Assembly: GCA_949751835.1 (NCBI GenBank)
Contig: CATKHK010000077.1
Location: forward strand, 150,363-214,362
Length of the DNA stretch: 64,000 nt
Direction: 5' to 3'
Origin: Blepharisma japonicum
Taxonomy: Eukaryota > Ciliophora > Heterotrichea > Heterotrichida > Blepharismidae
Position numbers and translations under genes: made by a program
Shown: piece after piece, positions 7,737-56,090 of the stretch
Layout of the letters: each line of letters starts with the position of its first letter
Numbering within the stretch: position 1 is the first letter of the stretch
Notes under the pieces: model-generated
The model's input: only the letters and a program-made list of their open reading frames with translations
What the model was told of the DNA's origin: nothing
Databases searched by the model: none

Positions 7737-8296
7737 TTTATATAACCTAAAGGATTATCAAATTAAATTTAAAGAAATATGCAAAAATTTGATTATATTT
7801 TTCAAAGAAATATTTTATTATTAATTTTTCTTATATGAATATTGCATTCGAGCTAATATAAAAATATAATCATTTTTATAAATGTAAATGCGAATAAAAG
7901 TTCCAATAGAATAAATTTATAATAAAATCATCTAAAATAGGCTAAATATGAATTTTATAAATTCTTTTAATTTGGAGAGCAATTAAGAACTAGAAATTTG
8001 AAATAAAAATGGAAATTGTTTCTGATGATTATTAATCGCGGAAAATTAGCAAATTTCTGCAGATACATAGATATACTATTCAGCAACGCAAAAAATCGAA
8101 ACAATTAATTAGAAAATAAAATAGGAAAATTCATATGATCTTTAAATTTTATAATTAAAGTATCTTATAAGGAAGAAATAATTCACAGTGAGAAAACTAT
8201 AGATCTTAATGAATAAATCAATTTTGGATTGCGAGGTTTCAAATAATTTAAGCAATTATATACATTAATGATATTAGTAATAAAAAAAACTTTCAA
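7737..8296. promoter_or_regulatory. Divergent intergenic region
   Basis: About 560 bp of very AT-rich DNA between two divergently transcribed genes, so promoters for both should lie here. I see no open frame, repeat or recognisable motif. Confidence 0.4.
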
Positions 8297-17699: not shown

Positions 17700-20075
17700 A
17701 ATTAATGCAACAATCAATAGCCTAAGTAAGCTACCGATATAATTCACGGGTAAAGTTCAATTTTTGACAGTTGACTATAAATTTCACATGGCAAGATACT
17801 AAGAAAAGAAATTTACAGTCAACGATGACAGCTCAGAACTCTAGAAAAAGAAATTAAAATTGTTTAATTACCAAGAGTAACAAAATTTTAATTATTTCTA
17901 ATACTTTAACTATTTTCAAAGAGATTTTTGTCTTTCACATGCGTGTGCTATAATGAAAATTTATTTTCTTTACTTTCCTCCCTCCTCTATGGTCGAGTAA
18001 AAGCTTATCTAAGTTATAAATGCTTCTTGGAGAGTATTATCTAGATCTGACAGGATTATTTATTCGTAAACCATTTTAGTATGCTAAAAAATTTCGAAAT
18101 TTAAATATCTAATCAGGCAGCTAACTAGTAAAAGTATTTATAAATAATGAATTTATTAGCGATTCAAACAGATATAATATTGTCTCTTAATATGAATTTC
18201 CTATGATGAAATATGCAAACATAGATTTATCAGCATTCCCTTTAATTCCAAGTCAATCGCTGTAATATGAGAACCAGAAAATTTAATTGCAGCTGAATAG
18301 AAAATACTTTTGATATCAAAAAATGCAGTATAATATCCAAATTATTTTGCAAGCCAATTTCTCAACAAAAAGAGAAATGGATGAAAGCTTTCATATGAAT
18401 TAGGAGAAGAATTGGCAGTCAAAATTCAGGAAGAAGATATTAACTAGTTATTTTAAAAAAAATGATGAGTATAGCTTTAGTGAGATGCAGAGTTAATCCA
18501 TGAAAAAGAAAACTCAATAGGCCAAAATTAAAGGCTTATCTTAGTAAATAAAAGCTTTAGATTGAGAAAAGAACTGAAGATATTTTTAATATTGATGAAT
18601 TTCACATAGAAATGTAGTAGAAACTATGGTTGAATTAATGTAAGAATTTCTTATGCTAAGTTACAAGATTTAAAATAAAAGCCTGCAAAGCTATCTCGCT
18701 GTGTCAAGTTTATTAAAATATTGCCAAACTCAATTTCAAATTCAGAACAGATTTTTAATGGGTAAAATATGAAGTTTTCTAATCAAACTCCATTAATATT
18801 TACCTCTGGAAATAGTTTATTTTCAAGAGAAATCGGACTACTTACAAAATATATTTTGAATTCTTTTAGTATAAACCTGTTTATTAAACATCGGTAAATG
18901 CTCTAACGAAGTCCCTCTATTTTTGCAATATAATTCTCCTTTTAAGTTTTTGGTCTAATAGTCACAGATTTTCATCAATCAATTTATCCATAGATTTATT
19001 CAGTCTAATACTATTCATATATATGGACTTTTCATTTACTAAAATTTTATAAAAATTTCTCGGTGAATAAGGATTTGCTATTAAATTTTAGCAACTTCAC
19101 GTATTCTCTGTCTCTTTTACTTGCAGAAGGATAACTATCTTCTAAAGACGTAAAAACGGAACTTCAGATGAATTGAATCAAATGATTTATTGCGTTCACT
19201 ATATAATGAAAGATCAGGAGAAATAGAAGGAGTTTTTTTAACACTAAGATTCAAAACTTGAGCAAATTATGCAGAAATATTTTTTTGTGGTATTCAAATA
19301 GCGTTCTTCCATCACTTAGAGCTCTTAGGCCATTACGAAGCATAATTAATCCATCATCCCTATTATCTTCTAAATAATTTGCTTTAATACCATTAATAGA
19401 GTTCTGATAGTGATTTAAACAATAAGTCATATATAATTTGCTAATTGCTCTTATCGAATTAATTGAAAAGTTGTTTTCTTTGTTTGCTCATACTCTTTAA
19501 ATATTTTTGTTTCGTCTTGCCTATTCAAAATGCTTTCAAAAGCAGTAAAAACTGAAAATCGATATCTATTTTAATCTTCTTCATAATTCCTTTCAACTTT
19601 GTATGCATTCCTTCAACACTGCTTGCTTTGAAAATAATTTCTGGCTATTTTTAAAGATTCTTCAATGTTTCTTAAATGGACACAATTCAGCCAATTCAAT
19701 TGAGGAAAATTCGCGCATATCTCTCTTTGTTAAAAATTAGCGTCTAAAAGAAATTCAATCATTTTTATTAGCAGATTGAACAATTATTACAGTGTTTTCT
19801 CCAATAGCACATTTAGCATAAACAATGTCTGTTACGATTGAATTTAACTCTCAGATGCTAGATCTATAGCAATACCCTTGCAGTATATCGTCTTCTATGC
19901 TATTTTGAGAGCCTCTTGATGTCAGTTCTAGCTCTATTTACAAATTATGGCCTATTTGGCAACTAATTAAGTCAATATCAACGATTTACAATTAAAATAT
20001 TAGATATAGCATATAATTTGCGGCATAAAATCCAAATTTTAAAATATTGCTAGTTATACGCTAAGCTTAGCTTTA
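17700..20075. repeat. R1 long repeat, copy 1
   Basis: About 2.3 kb between BK7 and BK6. It is closely repeated at 24,415-26,585 and 36,048-38,268. Its first 250 bp or so, next to the BK start, are shared with R2. It contains broken coding-like stretches on the minus strand, for example SVFTSLEDSYPSASKRDREY, MDKLIDENLWLLDQKLKRR and NTVIIVQSANKND, interrupted by stops and shifts. I do not recognise the protein. It is probably a decayed gene or mobile element carried along by duplication. Confidence 0.7.
18681..18707. other. Conserved 27-nt block, copy in R1a
   Basis: Begins GCCTGCAAAGCTATCTCGCT and ends GTGTCAA. The same block, with at most one change, stands at 22,174, 25,329, 32,659, 36,876 and 41,587, in both R1 and R2, although the sequence around it differs more. 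Confidence 0.6.
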
Positions 20076-20079
20076 GTTA

Positions 20080-21345
20080 TTAATCTATTATTCTTTTGAT
20101 CTTTTTGCATTTCTTTTCTTTCATATCAAATTCACATAAATTATAACCTCTAAAAGCAAAATAAACTTTATTTTGCCATGAAACACTACATCCAATTAAG
20201 TCTGCATTTTTAATTCCTGAGCTACCTATCGTACTCCAGGCTCTTCATTCATGGCTTCCTTCATAAATATATCCGTCTGATTCAATTACATAAGCATTTT
20301 TATTATTTCCACATACAATTTTTGACTTTTCTGATTGAATGTTATGCAACTCAATGTAGTTATTTTGAATAATATCATAGCAATAGATCTTTGAGTGCTG
20401 CCTACCAGATAGTAATATTTTATTATTTTTAGCCATGCATGACACATTATAGGATGGAACTGGCAAAGGATTTAAGTTTTCTCATTTGTTTTCTAATAAA
20501 TTATGTCTAAATGTATTATTTACAGACGCATTTCCATTATGTCCTCCAAAAATATAAACACAGCTATTATAATAAATAGAGCCACTTAATCCCAGACTAT
20601 GCTCTGCATTAACTACTTGTTTAACATTATTATTCGATTCAATAATAAATGCAGTATTTGTAATTGGTTGATGATTTCCATAGCAAAAGATTGCGTTTTC
20701 AGGAATTAAGCACATTACTATGTAATTGCTTTTTGGGCTATCCAATGAGATATTGAATTCAGTTGATGAGTAATTATTTAAATCAGTTTGCACAATTTTT
20801 GTGGAATCATTACGAAAAAGAATAAATCTATTTGATTCTTTTATAAGAGGCTCTGTTGTTAATTTCCCTTCATCATCTATAAAGAAGTTAGACCCATCAA
20901 AAATATCAAAAGAATTTTTGAGGAGACTAATTGCTTTTTCTGGTTCTAAAGCCAGCATCTCATCTATTTTAGTCTTGTTAAAATTTGATATGGCTTCTGT
21001 TAGCTTTATTTCAGATATTATTTTGCGCTGCTTTTTTATAGATTCGTCGAATGATTCCAATGTAACTTGCATTTTCTCATTAAGTTGCTTAATTTGTATT
21101 GAAAAATCTGAAACAATCTTTCTCCTTAGCTCATACAAATCTGATAGCGATTTGTTAAGACAATCAATAAGAGCTCTTTTTGTTTCTGGATTTGGTGAAG
21201 TTGCTAAGGGATCAGGAAGATGCCTAGATTTAGATGCGGTTCTCATATGAGCTGCGAGATGGATAGCACATGAATAAACAGGCGGATTTCTGCATGGGCA
21301 AGCAAACTCCAACTTATTTTGGCAGTGATCATTTCAGCACTTCAT
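20080..21345 (-). CDS. BK7: B-box-like zinc finger/kelch protein, intact, 421 aa
   Basis: Starts MKCWNDHCQNKLEFACPC at 21345 and is open to TAA at 20080 with TGA read as Trp at residue 4, ENKW (20482) and SHEW (20245). The zinc finger has CAIHLAAHMR for C26, H29 and H33. The CRNPP form links it to BK15 (40 kb), its probable counterpart in unit 3. A small change at the stop extends the tail to KIKRIID. The propeller signatures YYNSCVYIFGG and LSGRQHSKIYCYD are present. Confidence 0.8.
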
Positions 21346-21349
21346 TTTA

Positions 21350-22230
21350 TAAGCTAATCTACAAAAATTAATAGCCTAAGTAAACTACCGATATCATTCA
21401 TAGTTAATAGTATAAGTCTTGGCAATTGACTATGAATTTTACATGTCAAGAAACCGAGAAAATAAATTTACAGTCCAAGATAACAGCTCAGAATTCTAGA
21501 AAAAGAAATTAAAAATGTTCAATTACCAAGATTAACAAAATTTTAATTATTTCTAATATTTTTAACTATTTTAAAAGAGATCTTTGTCTTCCACATACAT
21601 ATATTATATTAAATATTTATTTTATTTAGTAAAAAGTATTTAATTATGTTAGCCAACTCAAACAAATATGATATTGTCTCATCAAAATAAATTAAATGTT
21701 ATGGAAGATATTAGCATATATTTGCCACATTTGTTTAATTCAAAGTCAATCCCTGCAATATGAGAACCAGAAAATTTGATTGCAACAGAATGGGAAATAC
21801 TTTTGTCAAGCACAAGAATCTATATGATTAGCAAATCAATTATTTAACAAATCAGCAAAAAGGAAAAGCTCTCATACGAATTAGTAGAAGAACCGGTAAT
21901 CAAAGTTCATAAAGAAACCCGAATGAAAATAATAACTAGTTAGTTTTTAAAAAGAATCAAAAGAAAAGAATGTTTATAGCTTTAATAAGATACAGAGTTA
22001 TCCATGAAAAAAGAAAATTCAATTAGACCAAAAATTATAAGGCTTATTATATTTTGTTGAAAGTAATGAAAAATTATTATATATTGGTGAATTCCACATA
22101 GCACAATGCAATAGAAATTATGGTTGAATAAAGTTAGAATTACTTATGCTAAATTACAAGATTTCAAATAAAAGCCTGCAAAGTTATCTCGCTGTGTCAA
22201 ATTCTTATGAATTATTGCTTGAATAGAAAT
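21350..22230. repeat. R2 repeat, copy 1
   Basis: About 0.9 kb upstream of BK7, repeated at 31,855-32,735 and 40,925-41,630. On the minus strand a coding-like piece reads KFSGSHIAGIDFELNE in the second copy; a diverged version is found in R1, so the two repeats share an ancestor. It contains the conserved 27-nt block at 22,174. Confidence 0.7.
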
Positions 22231-22261
22231 TGAAGATTGAAATAATGGGGTAGTAGTGAAA

Positions 22262-27972: not shown

Positions 27973-28987
27973 TTAAATTGTTTTGATCTTTTTGCATTTC
28001 TTTTCTTTCATATCAAATTCATATAAATTATAAGTATCAAAAGCAAAATAAACTTTATTTTACCATGAAATTTTGCATCCAATTAAGTCGTGATTTTCAA
28101 TTCCTGAACTACCTATCGTACTCCATGCTCTTCATTCATGGCTTCCTTCATAAATATATCCTCCTGATTCTATTACATAAGCATTTTTATTATTTCCACA
28201 TACAATTTTGACTTTCTTGGTTGAATATTATGCAACTCAATGTAACTATTTTGAATAATATCATAACAATAGATCTTTGAGTGCTGCCTACCAGATAGTA
28301 ATATTTTATTATTTTTAGCCATGCATGACACAAGTGAGGAGGAACTGGCAAAGGATTTAAGTTTTTTCATTTGTTTTCTAATAAATTATATCTAAATGCA
28401 TTATTTACAGGCGCACTTCCATTTCCTCCTCCAAAAATATAAACACAGCCATTATAATAAATAGAGCCATTGGCATACAGACTATGCTCTGCATTAACTA
28501 CTTATTTAACATTATTATTCGATTCAATAATAAATGCAGTATTTGCAATTGGATAATTTCCATAGCAAAAAATTGAGTTTTCAGGAATTAAACACACTAC
28601 TATGTAATAATGTTTTGGACTATCTAATGAGATATTGAATTCAGTTGATAAGTAATTATTTAAATCTGTTTGCACAATTTTTGTGGAATTATCACGAAAA
28701 AGAAAAAATCTATTTGATTCTTTTATTAAAGGCTCTGTTGTTAATTTCCCTTCATCATCTATAAAGAAGTTAGACCCATCAAAAATCTCAAAAGAATCTT
28801 TAAGGAGACTAATGGCTTTTTCTGGCTCTGATGCCAGCATCTCATCTATTTTAGTCTTGTTAAAATTTGATATGGCTTCTGCTAGCTTTATTTCAGATAT
28901 TATTTTGCGCTACTTTTTATAGATTCGTCGAACGATTCCAATGCAATTTGCATTTTCTCGTTAAGTTGCTTAATTTGTTTTGAAAAA
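27973..28987 (-). pseudogene. BK11: 3' part of a B-box/kelch gene, cut by an insertion and frameshifted
   Basis: The family sequence is recognisable from KQIKQLNEKMQ (about 28,985) to the stop at 27973. Single-base losses occur near 28,912 (after DESIK) and 28,210 (near KIVCG). The zinc-finger half is missing here and is found instead at 31,655-31,849, so this gene was split by foreign DNA. Its counterpart in unit 3 is BK15. Confidence 0.8.
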
Positions 28988-29801
28988 TAAAATATTGGAA
29001 AATTAGAATAGCTTTCAGGCAAAATATCTAAATAAGGCTTCCACCTGCTTTCTTCTTTTGCTTTTTCCTGCAATATAAACGAAGATAAAAAGGAATGTTT
29101 AGGAGACAACAAATTTAAATTACCGCAACCATATTTTGGCCAATTGGAGTCGTTTTTGTCATTTACAATGTAATTATATGAGATCTTGGAATAACCACAA
29201 TACACTCATTTTTAGCCATAAAAGTTGTGTGGGGACTCCTCTATAATCTTTCGAATAAAACCTTAACTTTATTTTCGGAAATTTTGCTCCACCTTCAATC
29301 AGCCAATTAAACAGGTTTTCGAACTTTTTCCTTTCTGGATGGTCCAAAGGAAGTGCTGTCTCAATCTCCATATCAGCTTCGATTTCTTTTTTTAATACTA
29401 ATAACTCTGGAAACTCAGGGTTAATTGCAAACCCACGATGTGCATAATCAAGTGCTTCTTGGAATCTGCATAATTCCCTGTGAGTAACTGCCATACGATA
29501 GTATAGAAATTGCCCGAGGATGACGCTATCTTGCGCCATCCTCGGGCAATTTGTATAGCCTTTATTTCAGCTGGGTCAGTTTCTATAGCTTTGGCAGAAT
29601 CTATGATTGCGTCTTCATAGTGGCGAAGCTCTATATAAGCTGATGCTCGATTAGTCAAAAGTATGACATGCGCCGGGTCTAATTCAAGACCTTTTGTGTA
29701 TAATTCAAGAGCCCTTGAAAATCGTGCATGCTGAAATCAGAGTTACCTTTTTCTTTGAAGGATTCTAGAGTATCTCGCTTCTTTTTGCCTTTGCCACCCA
29801 T
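28988..29801 (-). pseudogene. Decayed TPR-SET-type gene, truncated
   Basis: Begins with a plausible ATG at 29801 (MGGKGKKKRDTLESFKEKGN). TPR helices follow (LLTNRASAYIELRHYEDAI, THRELCRFQEALDYAHRGFA), then SET-like segments (KLRFYSKDYRGV, PRSHIITL and KHSFLSSFILQEKAK with PYLDILPESYSNFPIF). TPR plus SET is known from SMYD/RBCMT-like methyltransferases. The frame is broken by a one-base loss near 29,750, the palindromic element at 29,504-29,555, a shift near 29,225, a true TAA after HIITL, and another shift after that. The 3' end is lost at the BK11 junction. Confidence 0.75.
29501..29558. mobile_element. Palindromic TA-bounded miniature element (MITE/IES-like)
   Basis: Arms 29507-29522 and 29537-29552 are a perfect 16-bp inverted repeat (AAATTGCCCGAGGATG), extended to 20 bp with one mismatch around a 6-nt loop. 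The direct repeat GTATAG lies at both ends (29501-29506 and 29553-29558). Removing 50 bp between the inner TA dinucleotides rejoins the two TPR frames (KAIYYRMAVTHREL). It is GC-rich compared with its surroundings. TA-bounded, precisely removed elements with inverted ends are the hallmark of ciliate internal eliminated sequences; this assignment is inference. Confidence 0.65.
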
Positions 29802-29899
29802 TTTTAGCACTTTTATGGAAGAAAGTAATAGAAGTTCAAGAGAAAGCAAAATTTTTTAGAAAAATTATTCTTGAAACAATTGATATTAAGTTACGCTTT

Positions 29900-31849
29900 C
29901 TAAAATATAAAGCATTTTTCTTTATCCTTTTCACCTTTAGCCTTTTTTTCATATCTTTTAAAATTTTTTTGATGACTCCCAGTTATCGCAATCCTTTGAA
30001 GACCAACTTCACCTTCATTTTTATGCAAATTGCTTGTGCTCCCGATAGTCACTGCTCTTTGTATCATATTTTCTATAACATTTTCTATAACATTTTCTAT
30101 AACATTTTCTAAACATGGTACTTTTGCAGGCGCGCTCTCATACGTAGGCTTCTTCTTCAGAATTTTATATGTTTCTACCTTCATAGCCATTCCAGTCCCG
30201 AACACCGAAATTGCTAATTTTTTAGTCTGCATATGGTTGCATAAGAAATCATCTACAAGCACACTAGTAAATTGCTCCTTATAGTTAAAATTAGGACGTT
30301 CTGAATAGCCAGGAAATACATTGGTTCTTCGAATCCCAAGGCCTGGGAAATGGTACTCACAATATACATCATTTGCATGGGACAAAGGAATATTTCAAGC
30401 ATCATGGATTTCGACTCGGAAATTTATGAGGGATCCTATAAGTTCTTCAGGGGTTTCTGGGCCTTCGTCTAGGTAGTTGCCGTCTTCGTCAGTAGGGACA
30501 ATATTCATTTTAAGAAGCCCTGCGTCTCCTCCACTTGTGCTGATTATGAGGATGTTAAAAGGGTTATCAAAAAGTAGCCCTAGGGGTTTTAAAGAATAAT
30601 AGCCTTTCCCAAGTAAATTTTCTTCTGGAGGATCCCATAGTGGGTCTTCTTCAGGGGACGGATCAGTTTGTTCGTCTAGCATTTCTCTGAGCATACAAAG
30701 CCTATCTTCGAATTTTTCTACATCTCATAGCCAAATTAAGCCATAATCTTGGTTTTGTACTTCTACTTTGAGCTCTTTTTCCCAATAATCAGGCTCCAGG
30801 TCTTCTTCTTTTTCGACCTCATCAGGAAGAATATTGATGATTTTTACATTGAATTTTACATGTCGGTTTAAATCGGTTGTTATTAAATTGGCTTCGTTCA
30901 CAAGTGGGAAAAGTTTTGCAAGTCGCGAATGAAGCTGGCGTTTTTTGCTTATTGGCTCAGGCTCTGGAGGGACTTCAGCGGCTGAAACAGGTTCTTGTGG
31001 AGGCTCAGCTGAATTTTCTTGATTTTCAAGGTGTGTTTCAGGTTCAGCTACAATATCATTTTTAGGCTCTTCTTGAGGAGGAATTGAAGCTGTTTTTGTT
31101 AAAAGTGGGGTTGGAGGCTGCCAAGGTAGCTGCCGTAAATCTTTTTCTAGCCCTAATATTTGGGCTTCGTATTTCTCTTCCATTGCAAATTCATAGTCAA
31201 TGTCTTTTTCTTTGTATTTTGAGTCTTCTCCAGGTCTTTTGAATAAATAAATTTGGTTAGTCCCTATGATGATTCTGTCCAAGTTCTTAAGAATTATTTT
31301 TTCAATAACTTTTTGACCGTTTACATATAAATATTCACTGCAAGAAGGATCTATAGGTTCTAACGTGATATTTTCATTTTTATCTTTATCAAAAATGCAA
31401 TGTCTTGGCCTAATACTACAATTCGCAATAATTATATCCGGTTTGGGAATTCCAACTTTTCTACCCACAACTAATGGCACACTATCAAAATTATGGACAA
31501 CTTTGCCAGAAAGCAAATAATCTTCATTAAGATTCGTAAGATGAGGGCCAGACCTATCAATTTCTGGTTCAAATTCTTCTTTAACAGTATCTCTTTGCTG
31601 CTTCCAGCTTATTCTTTGTGCAGATGAAAATTTCTCATTTTCTTCTAGCTGTTCTCTTAGCTCATACAAATCTGATAGCGATTTGTTTTCTGGATTTGGT
31701 GAAGTTGTTAAGGGGCCAGGAAGATGCCCAGATTCAGATGCGGTTTTCATATGAGCTGAGAGATGGATATCACATGAATAAACAGGAGGATTTGTGCATG
31801 GGCAAACAATTTCCACCTTATTTTCGCAGTGGTCGTTTCAGCACTCCAT
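29900..31849 (-). CDS. Chimeric protein: BK zinc finger fused to kinesin-3 FHA and tail, 649 aa
   Basis: Open from ATG 31849 to TAG 29900 with TGA read as Trp at 30725 and 30395. Residues 1-64 are a BK N-terminus (MECWNDHCENKVEIVCPC, CDIHLSAHMK, then SLSDLYEL). From about residue 65 (REQLEENEKFSS) the sequence is kinesin-3: PHLTNLNED, an FHA domain at about 122-206 (LVVGRK, IRPRHCIF, YLYVNGQK, DRIIIGTNQIYLF), a Pro/Glu-rich linker, then the KIF1-type tail (LWDPPEENLLGKGYYSL near 404, and NFRVEIHDAW). There is no motor domain. Four ENVI-type repeats lie near residues 579-594. The protein ends KEKCFIF, a possible CaaX box. Residues ETKRALIDFLNK of the family are deleted in frame. If expressed it could act as a motorless adaptor; this is inference. 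Confidence 0.8.
30067..30112. repeat. 12-nt tandem repeat inside the chimeric gene
   Basis: The unit TTTTCTATAACA is repeated about four times on the plus strand, encoding ENVI repeats in the kinesin tail. Being a multiple of three, copy changes keep the frame. Confidence 0.7.
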
Positions 31850-31854
31850 TTTTA

Positions 31855-32735
31855 TAAGTAATCTACAAAAATTAAAAGCCTAATTAAACTACTGATATCA
31901 TTCATGGTTAATAGTATAAGTCTTGGCAATTGACTACACATCAAGAAACCGAGAAAATAAATTTACAGTTACAAGATGACAACTCAGAATTCGAGAAAAG
32001 AAATTAAAGATGTTCAATTACCAAGATTAACAAAATTTTTATTATTTCTAATATTTTTAACTATTTTAAAAGAGATCTTTGTCTTTCACATACATATGTT
32101 ATATTAAATATTTATTTTATTTAGTAAAAAGTATTTAATTATGTTAGCCGACTCAAGCAAATATGATATTGTCTCATTTAATAAATTAATTGTGATGGAA
32201 GATATTAGCATAGATTTGCCACATTCGTTTAATTCAAAGTCAATCCCTGCAATATGAGAACCAGAAAATTTGATTGCAATTGAATGGAAAATACTTTTGC
32301 CAAGCATAAGATCCAAATTATTTCAAATCAATTTTTAACAAATCGGCGAAAAGGAGCTCTCATACGAATTAGTAGAAGAACTGGCAATCCAAGTTCATAA
32401 AGAAATCAGGAATGAAAATATTAACTAGTTAGTTTTTAAAAAGAATCAAAAGAAAAGAATGTTGATAGATTAAATAAGATGCAGAGCTATCCATTAAAAA
32501 AAAAAACTCAATTAGGTAAAAAATAGAAGGCTTATTATATTTAGTTGAAATTAATGAAGAATTATTATATATTGGTGAATTGCACATAGCACAATGCAAT
32601 AGAAATTATGGTTAAATAAAGTTAGAATTCCTTAAGTAATTACAAAATTTCAAAAAAAGCCTGCAAAGCTATCTCGCTGTGTCAAATTCTTATAAATTAT
32701 TGCTTGAATAGAAATTGAAGATTGAAATAATGGCA
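31855..32735. repeat. R2 repeat, copy 2
   Basis: Second copy of R2, upstream of the chimeric gene. A 70-codon minus-strand frame remains open here (32,104-32,316) with KFSGSHIAGIDFELNE, conserved at protein level in R1 and R2 but broken in the others. The 27-nt block is at 32,659. The following 190 bp hold nothing recognisable. Confidence 0.65.
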
Positions 32736-38272: not shown

Positions 38273-39529
38273 TTAAATTGTTTTGATCTTTTTGCATTTC
38301 TTTTCTTTCATATCAAATTCATATAAATTATAACTGCTAAAAGCAAAATAAACTTTATTTTGCCATGAAACACTACATCCAATTAAGTCTGAATTTTCAG
38401 TTTCTGAGCTACCTATCGTACTCCAGGCTCTTCATTCATGGCTTCCTTCATAAATATATCCGTGTGATTCTATTACATAAGAATTTTTATTATTTTCGCA
38501 TACAATTTTTCTTTTTCCTGATTGAATGCTATGCAACTCAATGTAGCTATTTTGAATAATATCATAACAATAAATCTCTGAGTGCTGCCTACCAGATAGT
38601 AATATTTTATTATTTTTAGCCATACATGATACATTATAGGAAGGAACTGGCAAAGGATTTAAGTTTTTTCATTTGTTTTCTAATAAATTATATCTAAATG
38701 CATTATTTACATGCGCACTTCCATTATATCCTCCAAAAATATAAACACAGCTATTATAATAAATAGAGCCACTGGCATACAGACTATGCTCTGCATTTCT
38801 CACTTGTTTAACATTATTATTCGATTCAATAATAAATGCAGTATTTGCAATTGGGTCATTTCCATAGCAAAAAATTGAGTTTTCAGGAATTAAGCACATT
38901 ACTACGTAATTGCTTTTTGGGCTATCCAATGAGATATTGAATTCAGTTGATGAGTAATTATTTAAATCAGTTTGCACAATTTTTGTGGAATTATCACAAA
39001 AAAGAATAAATCTATTTGATTCTTTTATAAAAGGCTCTATTTTTAATTTCCCTTCGTCATCTATAAAGAAGTTAGACCCATCAAAAATATCAAAAGAATA
39101 TTTAAGGAGACTAATGGCTTCTTCTGGTTCTGAAGCAAGCATCTCATCTATTTTAGTCTTGTTAAAATTTGATATGGCTTCTGCTAGCTTTATTTCAGAT
39201 ATTATTTTGCGCTGCTTTTTTATAGATTCGTCGAATGATTCCAATGTAATTTGCATTTTCTCGTTAAGTTTCTTAATTTGCATTGAAAAATCTGAAACAA
39301 TCTTTCTCCTTAGCTCATACAAATCTGATAGCGATTTGTGAAGACAATCAATAAGAGCTCTTTTTGTTTCTGGATTTGGTGAAGTTGTTAAGGGATCTGG
39401 AAGATGCCTAGATTTAGATGCGGTTTTTATATGAGCTGCGAGATGGGTATCACATGAATAAATAGGAGGATTTGTGCATGGGCAAACAATCTCTACCTTA
39501 TTTTGGCAGTGGTCTTTTCAGCACTTCAT
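38273..39529 (-). CDS. BK14: B-box-like zinc finger/kelch protein, intact, 418 aa
   Basis: Starts MKCWKDHCQNKVEIVCPC at 39529 and ends in TAA at 38273, open with TGA as Trp (residue 4; ENKW at 38669; SHEW at 38432). It is the close relative of BK10. Zinc ligands include CDTHLAAHIK. The propeller shows YYNSCVYIFGG and LSGRQHSEIYCYD. Confidence 0.8.
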
Positions 39530-39655
39530 TTTATAACTTAATGAATAAAATTAATAGGCCTTGAGAATCATGATAAAGTTATAATATGTGGCATAAAATC
39601 TAAGATTTAAAAATATCGCTAATAATGCGCTAAGCTTACTTTAGTTATTAATCTA

Positions 39656-40915
39656 TTAAATTGTTTTGATCTTTTTGCATTTCTTTTCTTTCATATCAAA
39701 TTCATATAAATTATAATTTCAGAAAGCAAAATAAACTTTATTTTGCCATGAAACACTACATCCAATTAATTCGTGATTTTCAGTTCCTGAGCTACCTATC
39801 GTATTCCAAGCTCTTCATTCATGACTTCCTTCATAAATATATCCATCTGTTTCTATTACATAAGCATTTTTATCATTTCCACATACAATTTTTGCCTTTC
39901 CTGATTGAATGTTATGCAGCTCAATGTAACTATTTTGAATAATATCATAACAATAGATCTTTGAGTGTTTGTAGCCAGATAGTAATATTTTATTATTTTT
40001 AGCCATGCATGACACAAGTGAGGACGAAATTGATAAAGGATTCAAGTTTTCCCATTTGTTTTCTAATAAATTATATCTAAATGCATTATTTACTTGCGCT
40101 CTTCCATTATGTCCTCCAAAAATATAAACACAGCTATTATAATAAATAGAGCCACTGGAACAAAGACTATGCTCTGCATTTCTCACTTGTTTAACATTAT
40201 TATTCGATTCAATAATAAATGCAGTATTTGTAATTGGATGATTTCCATAGCAAAAAATTGAGTTTTCAGGAATTAAGCACATTGCTATGTAATTGTGTTT
40301 TGGGCTATCCAATGGGATATTTAATTCATTTGATGAGTAATTATTTAAATCTGTTTGCACAATTTTTGTGGAATTATTACGAAAAAGTATAAATCTATTT
40401 GATTCTTTTATAAAACACTCTGTTTTTGTTAATTTCCCTTCATCATCTATAAAGAAGTTAGGCCCATCAAAAATATCAAAAGAATCTTTAAGGAGACTAA
40501 TGGCTTCTTCTGGTTCTGAAGCAAGCATTTCATCTATTTTAGTCTTGTTAAAATTTGATATGGCTTCTGTTAGCTTTATTTCAGATATTATTTTGCGCTG
40601 CTTTTTTATAGATTCGTCGAATGATTCCAATGTAATTTGCATTTTGTCGTTAAGTTGCTTAATTTGTATTGAAAAATCTGAAACAACCTTTCTCTTTAGC
40701 TCATACAAATCTGATAGCGATTTGTTAAGAAAATCAATAAGAGCTCTTTTTGTTTCTGGATTTGGTGAAGTTGTTAAGGGATCAGGAAGATGCCTAGATT
40801 TAGATGCGGTTCTCATATGAGCTGCGAGATGGATATCACATGAATAAACAGGCGGATTTCTGCATGGGCAAGCAAACTCCAATTTATTTTGGCAGTTGCC
40901 ATTTCAGCACTTCAT
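39656..40915 (-). CDS. BK15: B-box-like zinc finger/kelch protein, intact, 419 aa
   Basis: Starts MKCWNGNCQNKLEFACPC at 40915 and ends in TAA at 39656. At ENKWENLNPL this copy uses TGG, so the frame is open for 355 codons even under the standard code. It is thus the best single witness that TGA in its sisters is Trp. It is the counterpart of BK7 and of the split BK11. Zinc ligands CDIHLAAHMR are complete. Confidence 0.85.
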
Positions 40916-51169: not shown

Positions 51170-52399
51170 TTATGTCAAATTCATATAAATTATAATTGTT
51201 AAAGCAAAATAAACTTTATTTTGTCATGCAACACTACATCCTATTAAAGCGCTGTTTTCAGTACCTGAGCTACCTATTGTGTTCCAGACTTTTCATTCAT
51301 GATTTCCTTCATAAATATAGCCGCCTGCTTCTATTACATAAGCATTTTTATTATTTCCACATACAATTTTTGTTTTTCCTAATTGAATGTTATGCAACTC
51401 AATGTAACTATTTTGAATAATATCATAGTAATAGATCTTTGAGTGTTCTCTACCAGATAGTAATATTTTATAATTTTTAGCCATGCATGACACATATAAG
51501 GATGGAGCTGGCAAAGGATTTAAATTTTCTCATTTGTTTGCTAATAAATTATATCTAAATGCGTGACTTACATATCCCCTTTCTACACATCCTCCAAAAA
51601 TATAAATATTGTCATTATAATAAATAGAGCCAGACAGCCCCATACTAAATGGAGCATTAACTACTTGCTTTACATTATTATTCGATTCAATAATAAATGC
51701 AGCACTTGTAGGAAATGGATAATTTCCATAGCAAAAAATGGACTTTTGAGGAATTAGACACATCGTTATAAATTGGCTTCTTGGGCAATCCAATGAGATA
51801 TTGAATTTAGTTGATGAATAATTATTATTTAGATCTGTTTGCACAATTTCTGTGGAATTATCACGAAAAATAGTAAATCTATTTGATTCAATTAAGGAAG
51901 ACGCTATTTTTGTTAATTTCCATGTCTCATCTATAAAGAAGCTTGACTCATCAAAAATACCAAAAGAATCTTTAAGACATTTAATTGCTTCTTCTGGCTC
52001 TGAAACGAGCATTTTATCTATTTCTGTTTTTCTGAAATTTGATACGATTTCTGGTATCATTATTTCAGATATTATTTTGCGTTGCTTTTTTATAAATTCA
52101 TCGAACGATTCCAATATAATTTTCATTTTCTCAGTAATTTGCTTGATTTGGATTGAAAAATCTAAAACAGTTTTTCTCCTTAATTCATATAAATCTGATA
52201 GCGATTTGTAAAGACAATCAATAAGAACTTTTTTAGCTTCATCATTTGGTGAAGTTATTAAGCGATCTGTAAGGTGCCTAGATCTAGATGCAATTTTCAT
52301 ATGATCGCCAATATGTAAGGCACATGAATAAATAGGAGGATTTGCGCATGGGCAAGTAAATTCAAACTTATTCTTGCAGTGGTCTTTTCAGCATCTCAT
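51170..52399 (-). CDS. BK21: B-box-like zinc finger/kelch protein, C-terminus altered by frameshift, 409 aa
   Basis: Starts MRCWKDHCKNKFEFTCPC at 52399. The frame is open (TGA as Trp at residue 4, at the ANKW site 51530 and HEW 51293) until VYFALT, where one base is missing compared with related copies (near 51,200). It then ends at TAA 51170 instead of the family stop at 51135. Only the last propeller strand and the basic tail are lost, so a near-normal protein is possible. Confidence 0.7.
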
Positions 52400-52739: not shown

Positions 52740-53175
52740 CTAAATTGTTTTAATCTTTCGAATTTTCTTTTCTTTTAAATCAAACTCATGCAAAATTATA
52801 ACCCTAAATAGCAAAATAAATTTTATTTTGCCACGATGCTGTAAATCCAATAAAATTATCATGCTCCATACTCGAACTTCCTATTTTACACCAGACTTTC
52901 CATTTACGATTGCTTTCGTCAATATTGCAAACTATTTTATCAAATAATAGCTCTTTTATTTTCGTATATAATTTTTCCATAACCTGCCTGAACATATGCA
53001 ATTCAGCGTAACTATTTTGACTGATATCATAGGAATAGATTTTTTAATGCCCCTTCCTAATAGTAAAATTTTGTTTTTCCTGCAAATGTAAGATGTAAAT
53101 GCACATGAAGCTGGTAAATTGTTTATATTTTTCCATTTATTCTTCGCTAATAAATTGTTTATTATATTCATTCAC
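52740..53175 (-). pseudogene. BK22: 3' fragment of a B-box/kelch gene
   Basis: Shows KNKWKNINNLPAS, CRKNKILL and WQNKIYFAI in broken frames and ends at TAG 52740. It is cut at about 53,175, where retrotransposon sequence begins, so the element probably landed in or recombined with this gene. No 5' half is found on the far side of the element. Confidence 0.7.
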
Positions 53176-53179
53176 TAAA

Positions 53180-56090
53180 TAACTTAAACATGCTGAGGTA
53201 AAAAATTGTAAGCTTTTATTCGATATTGGCCTAAATCTGAAAATTAGTGAAATTAGCTCTTCATCGATTCATTTTAATGAATTCTCTTTAATTTTACTTC
53301 TAAATCTTGATTTTTCCTGGTTTTTTAATTTTTTTCAGTCTATTATTTCAGGAGATCTTATTAAATTTTTAACTGTAGGGAATGAATCAAATATCTTTTT
53401 TGAGCATTTTGTAAATTGATTTCTTAAAAGCTCTCTATCACTTTTATCAAATTGTTCACTGTTATAGTTTTTTCATAGCTCTTTTAATCTGTTAGCTTTG
53501 ATTTCCCTCAGAATTAAGTAGTAAGATGGTATTTTGGTAATAAGATGCAATATCGGTATAGGACATCATTGAGGAGCGTATGATACTTTCCTTAGTGTTT
53601 TTCTTATGCAAGTCTCAAATTTTCCTTTCTCTCCTGATAAAAAAATTTTGTTCTCATTTTTATCTACAGTATTGCCCATCCCTTATAAATTTCCTCTGAT
53701 ACAGCTTTCGATAAGAATTTTAATGATTTATAATTAAAGCAATCTTGTCTTATACATCTTCCTATATTGTTCAAAGAAAATTTGAATTTGGGTAGTCTTA
53801 TTCTGCATTGTTCAATAGAATAGCTATTAATAAAAAATTTTCCGTCTTTCCTTAATTTCATAGTATTACCTAAATATTTATAAGATGTCGTTAAGCATGC
53901 ATATTCATTTTCTCTGTATTTGTCTAAATAAATTTCCTTTTTCCTTGATAGAATCATAATAGCTGTTTTATCAATTCCTTTATTGATTTCCATATTATTA
54001 TTGTTACATCATCTAATTACTTCATCACAAGCTTTAAGAATAGATTCATAATTATCACTTGCAATTAAAATATCATCAGCATAATCTCTAATAAATAGTC
54101 TTTTATCATTTTCTAGTATATCAAACAAGTCGTTAATATAAAGGTTAAATAAAATAGGACTTAATGGAGAACCTTGTCTAGCTCCTCTGTTAATTTTCAT
54201 TCATGGCATTTTAGAGCCCAAGACTCTTAAAGTTTGATCTTCGAAGATTAATTTTACAGCGTTAATTAGCTCAGCTGGCATCTTATAATTTTTTAGTTTT
54301 TCAATCAAAATTTGTCTATTAACAAATTTATATGCTTTTTTTGAAATCTATAAAAAGAAGAAAAATATTGCCTACTTTGTTGACATTAAATTTCTCATCA
54401 ATTCATGAATTTAGTATTTCGTATTGAATTTTAGCTGATTTTTTCTTTATAAATCCAAATTAATAACTTTTTATCTTTTCTGTTAAAATTTTTCGATATT
54501 TTTTGAATATGGAACTTTCATACAATTTAACTAAAAAGTTTATTAGTTCAATTGGTAGTTTTCAGCAAGATTTTTATAGCCTTCATTTTCAATATCATAA
54601 ACAATTCTATTACTACTCTCATACAAATTTGAATAAAATACTTTTCACGTATTGTACATACCATCATCACCACGAATACAACTTCTCTTTATAAATTTTA
54701 ATCTCCTATTCACTAGATATTTATCATCTCTCATATTAATGATATCTAGTATTTTATTCATATGCATACTAATAATCTCATTCTTTTCTAAAATTTTTAT
54801 ATTGGTGGTTCTTCTGTTTCTTCTTCCATATGCTCATCTTAAAGAACTTTGAAATGCTCATATTCAATTGCTAATATCTATTTTAGCAAGATTCCACAAT
54901 ATATTCTTCATATTTTCATAATTAGCATAGTCAATTTTAATATTCTTATTAATCTGAAAGTCTAAACACCTGCTCTTTCTGCTCATCTTAATAAATTGTA
55001 TCATATGTGAAGTTTTTTCTGTTTCATAAAGGAATAAATCGATGGGAAATTTGCTAAATGTATAATCAATAATTTTTTGGCAGTTTATATTTTTAAAGTT
55101 GGATTATTAGTAGAGTTTTTGATTTTATAGTCACATTCTTCAAGGTAGTCAAGAAGTATTTTGCTAATCTTGTCATTTTTATTTGATAGATAGCCTTTAA
55201 TATGTAAATTGAAATCTCAGTAATTATATCACATTGATATTTTTCAATGTTTCGTAAAAGTTTCATAAATTCCTCTGTTTTACATTTAGGTCTTGCATAG
55301 ATAAAGCAGGTTTTGAATCCTAATCCTTCAGCAATTGCAAATTGATATTCATTGTTGCTATCTTTTTCTAGAATTTTTCAATTTTCAGAATCTCTATCAT
55401 ATATTTGCAATCCTCAACTATCCAGTTTGAGGATTTTATTAAAATTTTTACTTATAAGTTCTCCAAATCCACTTTTTAGAATTCCTATCAGGTCACAGTT
55501 TGATTATTCAATTTCTTTTATTGAGTAATTTTTTATCCCTAGTTTATTATTCTAAATGTTTATGCAAGCAACTTTAATACAGTCTTTATCTGATTTCAAT
55601 ATATTTTTATCTTTCTTCATTTCTATTTCTGGTTTATCCCCAAACAGTTCTTTAATATCATAAATAATCAGCGATTTGAATTTTCTGCTTAAAGGACCAT
55701 CTGTTTTAATATCAAATCAAATGCAATCTCAGTTTCTCTCTTCACAGAATTTACGAATTAAATGTTCGTTTGACCATATAACAGAAGTTAATGAGAAATT
55801 TTCCTCTTTCTTGCCTTTTTCAATAAAACTTCTACTAACTACATCTTCATTTTCATTCGTAATTTTAATAAGTGCTTGTGGAAAATGAATAATTTTGCTA
55901 TAATAAGCTTAGGTACTCATATGTCTATTAATTTCACTCATAATTCATTTAATTTCCTTTTATAAAGCTCAGCATTGTTTATATTTGTGCATCTATCAGA
56001 GTAATGTCCAATTTTATTATATTTATTACAAAATCTAGTAAAATAGTGTTTTATCATAAAATCTCTTCCCAAATTTTAATACTTTTTCCA
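53180..56090 (-). mobile_element. Decayed non-LTR (LINE-type) retrotransposon
   Basis: Read on the minus strand with TGA as Trp. A CCHC-type zinc knuckle lies at 55,989-56,030 (C-x2-Y-x4-H-x4-C, second Cys changed to Tyr). Next is a region with an APE-endonuclease-like DFNLH segment near 55,200. Then comes a reverse transcriptase: LLFIDFKKAYKFVN near 54,340; MPWMKINRGARQGSPLSP; YADDILIA at about 54,065-54,085; and YKYLGNTMKLRKDG. There is a C-terminal tail to about 53,180. Several frameshifts and true stops break it, so it is inactive. No terminal repeats are seen, as expected for a LINE. The order knuckle-endonuclease-RT and the motifs support the class; the clade is not clear. Confidence 0.75.
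54009..54200 (-). pseudogene. Reverse transcriptase core fragment
   Basis: Open 63-codon stretch holding the two best RT motifs, GARQGSPLSPILFNLYINDL and YADD, the latter with the metal-binding Asp pair. It continues through a TGA (Trp) into the next 109-codon stretch (53,664-53,993), so the RT and thumb-like region is open for about 175 codons. Confidence 0.8.

Follow-up and report, generated by a model that had tools for sequence, protein, structure and literature searches.

The window analysed here is a 64-kb stretch of Blepharisma japonicum DNA that forms the end of contig C77, in an assembly of 224 contigs and 45.2 Mb. At about position 8000 of the window the GC content falls from 32-37% to about 28%, and ordinary single genes give way to an array of BK genes. 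Read with TGA as tryptophan, a code also reported for Blepharisma stoltei (somatic genome of 41 Mbp, 66% A+T; PMC9942806), the window holds 15 open BK reading frames of 409-439 amino acids with a Cys/His-rich N-terminus, one of which (51170-52399) has an altered C-terminus; seven shorter BK pieces are found in the same list of open reading frames of at least 150 amino acids. All three intact BK proteins scanned carry kelch repeats. Pairwise dN/dS among BK genes has a median of 0.36 over 78 pairs (13 of the 15 frames) and is 0.54-0.80 in the eight closest pairs. Open pieces resembling a non-LTR reverse transcriptase, by eye, lie within the array at 53137-55004, and more BK arrays occur at C50:1-30000 and C135:36000-45000 (L023-L026). 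Since C77 ends and C50 begins within BK arrays that point the same way, these contigs may be neighbours. Among the papers listed in a narrow search of open-licence literature on tandem expansion of kelch/B-box genes, none names Blepharisma in its title or abstract opening.

On the minus strand of this array, from 31849 to 29900, lies a frame of 649 codons that runs from ATG to TAG with no internal TAA or TAG and with TGA read as tryptophan at W4, W375 and W485; this frame, like those of the BK genes, is open under TGA=Trp only. The initial annotation, which gave no strand, had described it as a BK N-terminus joined in frame, at about 31,655, to a kinesin-3 that lacks its motor; both the open frame and the position of the joint are confirmed, the latter by DNA matches and a direct reading of the joint. 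Judging from its matches to the FHA domain and to the solved structure 7wrg_A (see below), the frame is more than a chance opening.

The BK-derived part comprises about 64 Cys/His-rich codons (31658-31849), as delimited by an alignment of 16 N-termini and by DNA matches to BK genes. Residues C3, C8, C16, C26, H29 and H33 are invariant in all 16 N-termini, the chimera included, and the potential ligands that the chimera keeps in this alignment are C3, C8, C16, C18, C26, H29, H33 and H42. The spacing of these residues is what we take to be a B-box-like pattern, as had been suggested at the outset, but profiles lend the suggestion no support: none of the 16 N-termini has a Pfam match at E<=10 (B-box PF00643 included), a PDB profile search of the BK N-terminus gave no match, and the 91 zf-B_box matches listed for the genome (best candidates scored) all lie outside the BK arrays on C77, C50:1-30000 and C135. 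The chimera also carries a 27-base in-frame deletion (site at 31688-31690), which is absent from all 13 BK N-termini aligned, eight of them as DNA.

Origin of the inserted segment

Positions 28987-31663 are 92.4% identical to C77:128235-130837 (2681 aligned bases, with 123 mismatches and 7 gaps), a source locus about 50 kb away on the same contig and in the same orientation. The segment contains the kinesin from about codon 400 to its stop, a spacer, and the start of a TPR-SET gene. The full-length parental kinesin-3 that the initial annotation proposed to look for is thus present on the same contig: a gene of 972 amino acids (C77:129098-132016, minus strand) with its motor, followed by a TPR-SET gene of 574 amino acids. 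A second, paralogous kinesin/TPR-SET pair lies on C27, and further kinesin-3-like genes were found on C46, C6 and C5 (three, among the best 68 of 330 candidates scored). The 29 matches listed in a search with the insert DNA are the insert itself, the parent, two C27 pieces, one C108 match, and copies of a small foldback element. The C108 match (C108:133194-133255) covers 62 bases of the insert's 3' end, in TPR-SET sequence, at 90% identity, and is possibly a second small copy.

BK sequence borders the insert at both ends. Upstream, window 31652-32733 is an 88% match to BK sequence at 21120-22248; downstream, the best BK match of the flank is at 39284-40677 (93%). At window 20012-22248 and at L026, the two flank matches lie 12 bases apart, which represents the uninterrupted paralogue form. 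At the 5' joint (31652-31663) BK and kinesin homology overlap, and an exact CTAAG is common to both; at the 3' joint the shared bases are AT. Read by eye, the joints show a loss of 17 BK bases and no target-site duplication. These comparisons indicate that a 2.68-kb genomic segment of kinesin and TPR-SET DNA was inserted into the coding sequence of a BK gene; capture of a BK promoter and zinc finger by a kinesin, as first proposed, has to be turned around, the kinesin/TPR-SET segment having entered the BK gene. Because the 5' joint is in frame, the reading from the BK start passes through the 64-residue Cys/His N-terminus straight into the kinesin tail and stops at the parent's own stop codon; the upstream region (31850-32733), a flank common to other BK genes, is inherited as well. 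The product would presumably be made from the BK promoter.

A retrogene, copied from one transcript with its poly(A), was rejected, because the segment crosses the spacer into the start of the next gene. The five and two shared bases and the 17 lost target bases would fit repair of a break by microhomology-guided templated insertion. BK arrays are repetitive and C77 ends inside one, a setting in which assembly or long-read error might join a kinesin to a BK gene; yet insert and closest source are set apart by the 123 mismatches and 7 gaps noted above, the insert shows decay of its own, and the BK halves on its two sides match. With an insert 7.6% diverged and BK sequence at both ends, an artefact of this kind is very unlikely, and we reject a misjoin.

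Frame preservation and substitution rates

The insertion cut off the 3' part of the BK gene and left it without a start. This remnant (27986-28984), identified by BK DNA matches and codon comparison, has three single-base deletions and three nonsense codons in 329 usable codons; the co-inserted 5' fragment of the TPR-SET gene (28987-29801), compared with the parental locus, is likewise dead, with four single-base deletions, one nonsense codon in 251 usable codons and one 54-base insertion. The initial annotation's statement that all neighbouring relics are broken is correct for these two and does not extend to the array, with its 15 open BK frames. The 54-base insertion (29503-29557) is a foldback with TATAC at both ends. 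Its 16-base arm has 18 copies in the genome, spread over 13 sites, against 0 for the reversed control, and the insertion appears to be a MITE-like element of very small size; for Blepharisma, PMC9942856 describes MITEs in abundance and eliminated sequences that are palindromic.

Together the relics (761 TPR and 999 BK bases, 1760 in all) hold seven frameshifts and four nonsense codons, against none of either in the 1950 bases of the fusion frame (p=0.005 for frameshifts alone). The TPR fragment, which came in with the kinesin part, is as old as the fusion, and compared with this fragment alone the kinesin part shows no frameshift in 1776 bases against four in 761 (p=0.008), or one indel of any kind against five (p=0.011). 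Both indels in the fusion frame, the 27-base deletion and a 24-base insertion of 12-base units revealed by comparison with the parent (30090-30113), are multiples of three. The frame has therefore been kept against a neutral control, of which the BK portion is perhaps partly older than the insertion, as the remnant may have decayed beforehand.

Parent and chimera differ by a dS of 0.078 and a dN of 0.046 (577 codons, four of them BK-derived), while the pairwise dN/dS between the parent and C27 is 0.08. We fitted a three-sequence codon model (table 4) to 573 codons, leaving out the BK codons and dropping 12 of 585 kinesin-derived codons for gaps. On the chimera branch, to which 48 replacement and 18 synonymous changes are assigned (ambiguous ones included), the kinesin part taken as a whole has a dN/dS of 0.62 when fitted alone and of 0.94 in the joint model. 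These values do not differ from 1 (p 0.48-0.83) and are far above a background of about 0.05 (BK codons 61-64 included); nor is this branch distinguishable from the parent's own short branch (p 0.66, the same four codons included). By part, with MBS-MATH limits and a three-part split chosen after the alignment was seen, dN/dS is 0.91 for CC1c-FHA-CC2, 0.30 for MBS-MATH and 2.25 for the C tail, beside 0.68 for the TPR relic. Four free values fit better than all values equal to 1 (p=0.003), and MBS-MATH, at 0.30-0.33, departs from 1 by itself (p=0.0017). Residues 329-455 contain no replacement change where 10.6 are expected and three synonymous changes where 4.0 are expected; a gap of 128 codons without amino-acid change has a scan P of 2e-4, position allowed for.

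These figures bear on two readings other than selection on the fusion. The first is that the chimera is dead or drifting: the insertion broke a BK gene, nothing in the product is selected, and the frame is open by luck. The whole-part dN/dS agrees with this, as do the values for CC1c-FHA-CC2 and the C tail, neither of them lower than the value of the TPR relic, and the death of the adjoining BK remnant and TPR fragment; in a simulation (four BK codons included) the frame stays free of nonsense by chance with P 0.18 at 40 changes, falling to 0.05 at 70. What drift accounts for poorly is the absence of frameshifts and nonsense in the fusion beside their number in the relics, and the 128 codons without replacement at a normal synonymous rate. 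We regard drift as a serious rival that falls somewhat short of an even chance. The second reading is that gene conversion by the parent keeps the frame. Donor and recipient share a contig and 92% identity, and the longest run free of differences (62 codons, residues 362-424; P 0.004, four BK codons included) lies in the conserved centre; but synonymous changes there are not clearly depleted, being near expectation (on small numbers), which argues against conversion, and the TPR part of the same insert stayed unconverted. Conversion is thus rejected as the main cause and very improbable as an explanation.

The evidence for selection is mixed: the frame is kept and one domain pair looks constrained, and the rest is apparently free to change. 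The initial annotation had offered selection or a very recent origin, and had proposed dN/dS of the shared part as a check. Selection is favoured by the frame kept against the relics and by the low rate in MBS-MATH, but the kinesin part as a whole is not below 1, and a dS of 0.08 to the parent means that the origin is not very recent. On balance, we put the chances slightly better than even that this is a young chimeric gene, formed at the DNA level and under some selection, that encodes a motorless tail; the chimeric gene has probably been retained.

A motorless kinesin-3 tail

That the tail is of the kinesin-3 type, with an FHA domain, is borne out by profile comparison. Residues 127-196 (31262-31471) match FHA (PF00498, E 4.7e-8, 33.8 bits against a cut-off of 20.7), the sole Pfam family above its cut-off in the fusion; the same scan found neither a kinesin motor domain nor kelch repeats there, whereas the parent has the motor (PF00225, E 2.3e-104). 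The best solved relative is 7wrg_A (residues 58-225 and 306-555 of the fusion, E 5.9e-32), listed as 'kinesin-like protein' and taken here to be KLP-6, whose published residue numbering it fits. Residues 306-555 align to 7wrg 593-840 (phmmer, 63 bits), so that an MBS-MATH tail is present by sequence alone, and the tail also matches chains of KIF1A, KIF1B, KIF1C and KIF13B. KLP-6 is reported to have the order CC1c, FHA, CC2, MBS, MATH, the CFCMM supramodule (PMC9314371); with this order, the phmmer match and the maximum-likelihood rates, we place the MBS-MATH region at residues 302-560 (30170-30946). The fusion thus appears to keep CC1c, FHA, CC2, MBS and MATH and to lack motor and neck, the extent of retained coiled coil being a reading of the alignment. 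A genome search with KIF1B (PF12423) gave no match at the fusion among the matches listed, which are three, in the C5, C46 and C6 kinesins, one of them over the cut-off.

The fusion ends in CFIF (29903-29914), as does its parent, and similar ends occur in all five kinesin-3-like genes fetched (CFIF, CAIF, CEII, CLIF and CLIF). We assume this motif to be a CaaX box, and the ends read as if prenylation attaches these kinesins to membrane. Among the papers listed in narrow searches of open-licence literature, none is, by its title, on ciliate kinesins, and none on a natural motorless kinesin-3 gene.

What such a tail might do is suggested by C. elegans KLP-6. Constructs without the motor (350-928 and 580-928) are reported to bind microtubules (PMC10945585), and in the autoinhibited protein FHA and MBS pack on the motor (PMC9314371). 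The simplest role for a motorless tail with those parts and a C-terminus of lipidation type would be that of a competitor or trans-inhibitor of its parent: attached to membrane, it would, if expressed, vie with the parent kinesin-3 for cargo adaptors or for contact with microtubules, or alternatively bind the parent motor in trans, an action extrapolated from contacts within one molecule. MBS-MATH would be the part that still matters. We hypothesize, as an unlikely but specific version, a newborn regulatory gene in which break repair has made the entire autoinhibitory half of a kinesin-3 into a separate, lipid-anchored protein whose N-terminus is zinc-finger-like and which acts in trans on its parent motor, with the MBS-MATH core under selection and the FHA part and tail being remodelled.

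The FHA and MBS-MATH tail is, by sequence, what the fusion has in common with KLP-6 and the KIF1/KIF13-type kinesin-3 proteins; unlike them, it lacks motor and neck, begins instead with a BK Cys/His N-terminus, and has the CaaX-like end found in five kinesin-3-like genes of its own genome. Young chimeric genes are also said to have formed elsewhere, jingwei by duplication and insertion and others in a gene-fusion study of Oryza, and the fusion resembles these in its two parents, in-frame joint, inherited upstream region and fast amino-acid change; it differs in being a DNA copy that brings along the start of the next gene, usable as a control. Among ciliates, Oxytricha is reported to form new genes by alternative use of DNA segments (PMC4684698), and as far as that account goes short duplications feed new somatic genes there as here, the present case differing as a plain insertion in an assembled genome.

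Chimeric genes by duplication are already known, and what is unusual here is how complete the record is and that it brings its own control: parental locus, interrupted BK gene, the two joints and the pair of dead relics all lie on one contig, which lets the upkeep of the frame be judged against sequence of the same locus. As a record of a chimeric gene at an early stage the locus is unusually clear and, if the gene is expressed, would show that the part of a kinesin-3 responsible for autoinhibition, half of the protein, can become a separate gene.
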